46,291 nt of DNA from Nitrospira japonica (GTDB taxonomy: Bacteria; Nitrospirota; Thermodesulfovibrionia; UBA6902), in assembly GCA_020723105.1 (NCBI GenBank), contig DYJL01000024.1, forward strand, positions 1 to 46,291, in the 5' to 3' direction. Shown piece after piece: positions 39,511-40,929 of this stretch. The notes beneath the pieces are model-generated. The model had not been told where the DNA came from, did not search any database, and was given only the letters and a program-made list of their open reading frames with translations. Position 1 is the stretch's first letter, and each line of letters starts with the position of its first letter. Both the position numbers and the translations under genes were made by a program.

Positions 39511-40209
39511 ATGGAAGCATGTTTCAGATTAATTCTTTTTGATATTGATGGAACCTTAATAACTACCGGAGGTGCGGGAGTTCATGCCCTTGAAAGGGCG
39601 TTTCATACCCTTTTTGATATTAAAGATGCTGTTAACTCTATACCAATGGCGGGAAAAACCGACGTACAGATTATCAAAGAAGTCCTCGGATTACACGGAT
39701 TATCCTATCTGGATGGTAACGTTAAGAAAATGCAGGAAATGTATCTCCATTATTTACAAGAAGAAATATGTAACCGGGATAAAAAGCTAAAGCCTGGCGT
39801 GAAAGAGCTTCTTAACCTATTGAAAAATAAAGATATTCCATTAGGTCTCCTCACTGGCAATCTTGAAAGAGGCGCAAAGATAAAGCTCCATCCTTTTAAC
39901 CTTAATGAATATTTTATTGATGGTGCATTTGGCAGTGACCACGAAGACAGAGATGAGCTTTTGCCAATTGCTATAGACAAATTCCGGAGAAAGGGGTTCA
40001 CATTCACTCCGAAGCAATGCATTATTATTGGGGATACGCCAAGAGACGTTAGGTGCGCCAAAATACATGGTGCCAGATGTATTGCAGTGGCAACGGGACC
40101 TTATTCAAAAGAAGAGTTGCTAACTACAGATGCAGACATGGTCCTTGACTCTCTTAGTGAGACAGAACAATATTTAACTCTCTTAACCGGGAATACTGAG
40201 CTTATCTAA
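39511..40209 (+). CDS. HAD-superfamily phosphatase (phosphoglycolate phosphatase-like)
   Basis: A 232-aa HAD hydrolase. Motif I LFDIDGT (catalytic Asp 11, acid Asp 13), motif II LLTGN, a motif III Lys region and motif IV IIGDTPRDVRCA are intact. A helical cap between motifs I and II (about 20-95) is of the phosphoglycolate phosphatase/Gph kind. It could dephosphorylate 2-phosphoglycolate or another small sugar phosphate; the substrate is not certain. Its upstream region carries a MITE-like insertion ending 19 bp before the ATG, which may have altered expression. A decayed copy of its 5' region lies at 36682. Confidence 0.85.
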   Translation: MEACFRLILFDIDGTLITTGGAGVHALERAFHTLFDIKDAVNSIPMAGKTDVQIIKEVLGLHGLSYLDGNVKKMQEMYLHYLQEEICNRDKKLKPGVKELLNLLKNKDIPLGLLTGNLERGAKIKLHPFNLNEYFIDGAFGSDHEDRDELLPIAIDKFRRKGFTFTPKQCIIIGDTPRDVRCAKIHGARCIAVATGPYSKEELLTTDADMVLDSLSETEQYLTLLTGNTELI

Positions 40210-40360: not shown

Positions 40361-40386
40361 TATATTGTTCCACGTGGAACAATATA
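40361..40386. promoter_or_regulatory. parS-like ParB-binding palindrome
   Basis: The 16-bp core TGTTCCACGTGGAACA (40366-40381) is a perfect palindrome and matches the chromosomal parS form known from Pseudomonas. The B. subtilis form is TGTTTCACGTGAAACA. The symmetry continues to 26 bp (TATAT and ATATA flanks). It lies in a 720-bp gene-free stretch between the HAD gene and tsaD. Confidence 0.85.
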
Positions 40387-40415
40387 GTCATGGCTATTAA
40401 AATGTTTTAACCTAT

Positions 40416-40575
40416 GTAACCATTCAGTTGTGGGTGGTGTCTGTCATTCCGGCTTGTCCGGAATCAATTTGCAAGAAGGATTCTCGCCTCGGCGAGTCGC
40501 CTGATGTGACCCGACGCGCTTTGCTTGCGGGAATGACAACTCGAATAGTTTTTTAATCAATAACTGAATGGTTAC
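40416..40575. mobile_element. MITE-like element with GTAA ends and 8-bp target duplication
   Basis: The 160-bp element begins GTAACCATTCAGTT (40416-40429) and ends with the perfect inverse AACTGAATGGTTAC (40562-40575). The 8-bp duplication TAACCTAT abuts both ends (40408-40415 and 40576-40583). Inside is a second palindrome with arms GTCATTCC (40443-40450) and GGAATGAC (40530-40537). 5'-GTAA termini with 8-bp duplications are the pattern of IS66-family elements, so mobilisation by an IS66-type transposase is likely. No coding region is present. Confidence 0.85.
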
Positions 40576-40583
40576 TAACCTAT

Positions 40584-40929
40584 AAAAAGAAGTTGGCCAC
40601 AGACTAACACAGACAATAAAAGTAAGAAGTGAAAGGCAAAGGGAAAAACAGCCTTCCATGTCTGCAGCAATTGTAGCAGGGTTCGCTATGAACAAAACAA
40701 GATGGGGTTGCAAGAGGTATTTTATAGTAATTGTAAAGCATGTTATCAAGATATTATTAACAGGTGTTGATATCTTTTTCCCTCGATATATAACTATATA
40801 ATTAAATTAATAATTTTGAATAAATGAATAACAATTAAACGGGGTGTATTTGTTTAATTATTGCTAATCCGGACTAACGAGTTAAAGCTGAGCTTTTATT
40901 TTATTAGTCAAATCAGTAAGATAACTAAT
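40584..40929. other. gene-free spacer before tsaD
   Basis: A+T-rich DNA with no supported gene. It includes a GGCCACAGACTAACACAGAC-type repeat word near 40594 and a TAATCCGGACTAACGAG word (40865-40881) that partly recurs near the ileS promoter (TAATCCGG at 45481, ACTAACGAG at 45503). I see no strong promoter. Confidence 0.4.

Follow-up and report, generated by a model that had tools for sequence, protein, structure and literature searches.

A 160-bp element in the interval separating a HAD-hydrolase gene (39511-40209) from tsaD (starting at about 40930) was best explained as a non-autonomous IS66-type MITE that duplicated its target TAACCTAT, a reading to which we assign a probability of roughly 0.9. 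The window, the whole stretch of DNA analysed (46,291 nucleotides), is the entire contig C62 of the 3.13-Mb, 94-contig draft genome of Nitrospira japonica. According to the proposed mechanism, the MITE would have retained only roughly 21-23-bp IS66 ends (GTAACCATTCAGTTAYGGGTGG), on which IS66 TnpC and accessory proteins probably acted in trans to move it. Its insertion between the two genes would have duplicated the 8-bp target, and the IS66 source was presumably lost from the lineage or missed by the assembly. The element is an ordinary kind of transposable element, and its MITE family appears to be undescribed.

Structure of the element

The features of the element and its immediate neighbourhood were as follows.

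40366-40381, plus strand: parS-like palindrome TGTTCCACGTGGAACA, a neighbour outside the element
40408-40415, plus strand: left copy of the 8-bp target duplication TAACCTAT
40416-40438, plus strand: left end GTAACCATTCAGTTGTGGGTGGT, of which the first 14 bp form the perfect inverted repeat; 22 of 23 bases identical to one end of an IS66 element in G025
40443-40537, plus strand: nested palindromic module GTCATTCC...GGAATGAC, also dispersed alone in this and related genomes
40484-40511, plus strand: third-layer 28-bp insert TCGCCTCGGCGAGTCGCCTGATGTGACC within the module; a near-identical short repeat occurs by itself at other places in the genome (L017, L018, L023)
40562-40575, minus strand: right end, perfect 14-bp inverted repeat, reading GTAACCATTCAGTT on this strand
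40576-40583, plus strand: right copy of the 8-bp target duplication TAACCTAT

The perfect 14-bp ends and 8-bp duplication described in the initial annotation were exact. The inverted ends (40416-40429 and 40562-40575) were 100% complementary (14/14) and lay 132 bp apart, and the duplication matched at 8/8 positions on either side, giving 176 bp with both copies included. Four pairs of exact 14-bp inverted repeats no more than 400 bp apart were observed in the window against 0.25 expected, and only the element's pair was flanked by an exact 8-bp duplication. The combination of both features occurred in 0 of 100 dinucleotide-shuffled windows. At 160 bp the element was below the upper MITE size of about 600 bp and carried no transposase gene; the sole open reading frame that overlaps it, 101 aa long and on the minus strand (40444-40749), extended beyond it and by eye was unlike any transposase. 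The folding of the element strand was stronger than that of shuffled sequences (z -3.9), as expected because its palindromes are nested.

A dispersed MITE family

The exact 14-mer end had no second copy anywhere in the same genome, but the genome-wide search proposed in the initial annotation did recover five diverged relatives:

C25:10767-10900, target duplication AGACGCAC (8/8)
C79:151101-151234
C66:19664-19797, target duplication 7/8
C63:119861-120019
C79:121189-121289

Two insertions in this genome, those in the window and on C25, had perfect target duplications, and the one on C66 matched at 7/8 positions. Across the phylum, the 15-mer GTAACCATTCAGTTA was present in 12 of 395 genomes, and the reversed control in none. 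Complete elements of 134-160 bp with the same end type and a perfect 8/8 duplication numbered 13 (window, C25, L035, L047, L095, L099, L102, L103, L104, L111, L120, L148 and L159) in eight Nitrospirae genomes: four in G008, two each in G000 (the genome of the window) and G407, and one each in G001, G009, G018, G022 and G275. The duplications of these 13 insertions were mutually unrelated in sequence, and several copies occupied unrelated sites, each flanked by a separate duplication. Among loci chosen partly by motif, GTAA/TTAC pairs spanning 61-260 bp with an exact 8-bp duplication occurred 10 times, whereas the average across all possible 4-mer ends was 0.12. The consensus end of the family was GTAACC[A/C]TTCAGT, followed by TAYGGGTG or GAAGGGTG. 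Viral contigs searched for the element gave no match. These observations support the earlier MITE claim and place the element in a dispersed MITE family.

Origin of the ends

IS66 elements have inverted repeats of 20-30 bp starting with GTAAGCG and produce an 8-bp target duplication (PMC11946415). The element shares the GTAA start (GTAACCATTCAGTT...), the end length of about 20-30 bp and the 8-bp duplication, and differs from the published start at the fifth and later bases. The initial annotation had guessed an IS66 origin from the GTAA start and the 8-bp duplication, and sequence support came from relatives rather than from the genome itself. The same ends were found 80-185 bp past the C-terminus of a TnpC (DDE_Tnp_IS66) gene in four relatives, as partial elements in two of them and beside short tails in the other two. 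In G012, of the same family, a TnpC C-terminus (L074; PF03050, E 2e-8) was followed about 98-100 bp downstream by the end ...CCACCCTTCACTGAAGGGTTAC. In G222, TnpC C-termini (L096/L158; PF03050, E 1e-5) faced GTAACCATTCAGTTACGGG at a distance of up to 185 bp. In G008, of the same genus, and G025 (MAG JACQZD), of the same order, contigs stopped inside a multi-copy element whose end was GTAACCCTTCAGTGAAAGGTGG or GTAACCATTCAGTTACGGGTGG, with about 28 and 7-8 contig-end copies, respectively, at which the assemblies were broken. The frame facing this end closed with LSKDITLDPSPLLFHKDTPPP and KDITLDPFTILFHKDIPPP, each before a stop codon, and these tails, only about 20 residues long, were similar to the G012 TnpC tail LSQKMTLDPFQLLFPP, likewise before a stop. 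Furthermore, the left end of the window element shared 22 of 23 bases with the opposite end of the IS66 element in G025.

Each source element recovered was truncated, either where its contig stopped or by an insertion. None was a complete IS66 element carrying these ends, and in none did tnpA/tnpB occur together with the two ends of a single copy. Most PF03050 matches from genomes of the order and from selected genomes of the class lacked matching ends, among them a complete-looking IS66 element in G222 (L181). A short reading frame (MEKDGERVKGNVL) read inward from the G025 and G008 ends was rejected as antisense to the TnpC tail. As a separate observation, the IS66-type element at the contig ends of G008 (MAG JACRLN; about 28 copies) largely sets the fragmentation of that assembly.

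The 94-contig draft of the genome itself gave 0 matches to PF03050 and 0 to the G012 TnpC query. The initial annotation had proposed a comparison with the ends of an IS66 element in the same genome and had named the lack of one as half of what would count against its reading; with no IS66 transposase there, that half holds for the genome itself. Present mobility would require a transposase in the same genome, but an IS66 origin of the ends would not. The absence of the transposase is what favours movement of the MITE by another DDE family whose insertions likewise give 8-bp duplications, the end similarity to IS66 being coincidental. This explanation is very unlikely, because IS66 TnpC C-termini or tails abut the same end type in four relatives, the identity to the G025 element end is 22/23, and a GTAA start with an 8-bp duplication is an IS66 trait (PMC11946415). 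Taken together, the TnpC termini beside the same ends, the end identity and the joint GTAA and 8-bp pattern make IS66 the likely source family on sequence grounds, with a partner known only from relatives.

Interior modules

The second repeat that had been noticed inside the element proved real, as the GTCATTCC module, and contained a further layer. The 28-bp repeat was an insertion relative to shorter copies of the module. The short TCGCCTCGGCGAGTCGCCTG repeat was observed both standing alone (L017, L018, L023) and inside GTCATTCC modules, as the third nesting layer.

Among the fetched loci, the GTCATTCC module was mostly solitary, with 49 of 57 distinct places having no GTAA end nearby. This abundance would suit a mobile unit consisting of the inner repeat, with the outer inverted repeat merely its extended stem. 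However, the target duplications directly flanked the GTAA ends on their outer side, and unrelated interiors were enclosed by the same ends with duplications: another palindromic module, CCCCTC...GAGGGG, in G001, G008, G275, G335 and G407, and yet another in G018. The inner repeat as the mobile unit is therefore highly improbable, and each copy examined with a supporting duplication carried one of at least three types of palindromic module within the IS66-type ends.

The junctions between module and flank were common to the elements of the window, G008 and G007. Read inward, the junction on the right side of the window element was AAAAAACTATTCGAGTT abutting GTCATTCC, and that in G008 was AAAAAACTATTTGGATT abutting GTCATTCC. 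Given these shared junctions, the GTCATTCC hairpin module, judged from sequence comparison, is part of the family body in this genus and not a chance later insertion into one copy.

Genomic setting and age of the insertion

The exact parS-like palindrome ended 26 bp before the left duplication, upstream of the element, close to the 30 bp given earlier. This palindrome was found at the same place upstream of tsaD in most congeners (L220-L224 and L226; one mismatch in L225), within a spacer that was itself not conserved among them. Although such conservation could point to a host regulatory or chromosome-segregation feature tied to the parS-like site, a non-mobile inverted repeat of this kind is scarcely credible, with the element absent from the orthologous parS-tsaD spacer in 7/7 congeners read and copies present at unrelated loci, each with its own duplication. 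Because of its absence from these seven spacers, the MITE insertion is suggested to have arrived after this species split from the seven congeners.

The insertion had been called probably recent. An intact duplication together with perfect 14-bp ends would fit this, but recency was not established, as the left and right ends agreed at only 17 of their first 23 positions and the exact 14-mer had no other copy in the genome. The GGGTG block seen in the family consensus had been lost from the right end, and the fuller ends (about 21 bp) had already diverged beyond the perfect 14 bp.

The empty TAACCTAT site that the initial annotation suggested seeking was not found in exact form, the congener spacers being too diverged. 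A repeat in G007 (L197, L204) spanning a single AACCTAT copy agreed with the two flanks, once joined, at 87% of 62 bp, but is weak evidence for an empty site because on the left it extended only two bases past the duplication. The right flank AACCTATAAAAAGNAGTTGGCCACAGACTAACACAGA (40576-40640) was itself an interspersed repeat in this congener (L197, about 1498-1557; L204, about 487-546).

Comparison with known systems

The element resembles IS66 family insertion sequences in its GTAA-starting ends, its 8-bp duplication and the matching ends beside PF03050 transposase genes in relatives, and differs from them in its 160-bp gene-free body, in GTAACC against the published GTAAGCG, and in having no source element in the genome. 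Like the Chunjie MITE of Geobacter uraniireducens (PMC10969869) and the IS982-derived MITECca01 of Cardinium (PMC9769881), it is short and gene-free, with TIRs, a duplication, intergenic copies and a variable interior. Unlike these, it has IS66-type ends, and its interior is itself a palindromic repeat that is dispersed in the genome, with three or more unrelated kinds represented across copies. The interior modules are, as REP-like palindromes are, dispersed hairpin repeats in intergenic DNA; REP-like palindromes lack GTAA ends and an 8-bp duplication, whereas here a transposon carries the hairpins as passengers.

The literature searched yielded no paper describing an IS66-derived MITE, and searches by end sequence strings returned nothing relevant. 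Since a review of bacterial MITEs also does not mention IS66 (PMC10969869), IS66 is probably an addition to the IS families for which miniature derivatives are reported. A family spread over several Nitrospirae families thereby gains a likely source family, and three repeat classes are nested in layers within 160 bp.

Putative solo ends

Palindromes of 23 bp resembling single ends were observed at three places in the genome (loci also L228 1501 and L230 1501), of which only one had a duplication:

C2:34681, solo palindrome GTAACCCTTCAGTGAAGGGTTAC
C54:32989, solo palindrome GTAACCCTTCAGTGAAGGGTTAC
C63:99673-99695 (L231 1501-1523), solo palindrome GTAACCCTTCAGTGAATAGTTAC with a perfect 8-bp duplication ACTCTGAA

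Either end of one subtype was an imperfect palindrome, so that the pair can equally be read as direct repeats, as with the left ACCCTTCAGTGAAGGGT and right ACCCTTCACTGAAGGGT ends of the G012 type, and collapse is possible. Recombination or slippage between such ends would leave exactly a 23-mer solo end. From these three cases, the solo palindromes look like collapsed IS66-type elements. We tentatively propose, as a possible though rather doubtful generalization, that IS66-type ends act as carriers of dispersed hairpin repeats of unrelated kinds and that the elements can collapse to 23-bp solo ends such as GTAACCCTTCAGTGAAGGGTTAC. If so, the solo ends would be a bacterial counterpart of solo LTRs and would indicate a simple decay route for IS66 elements.
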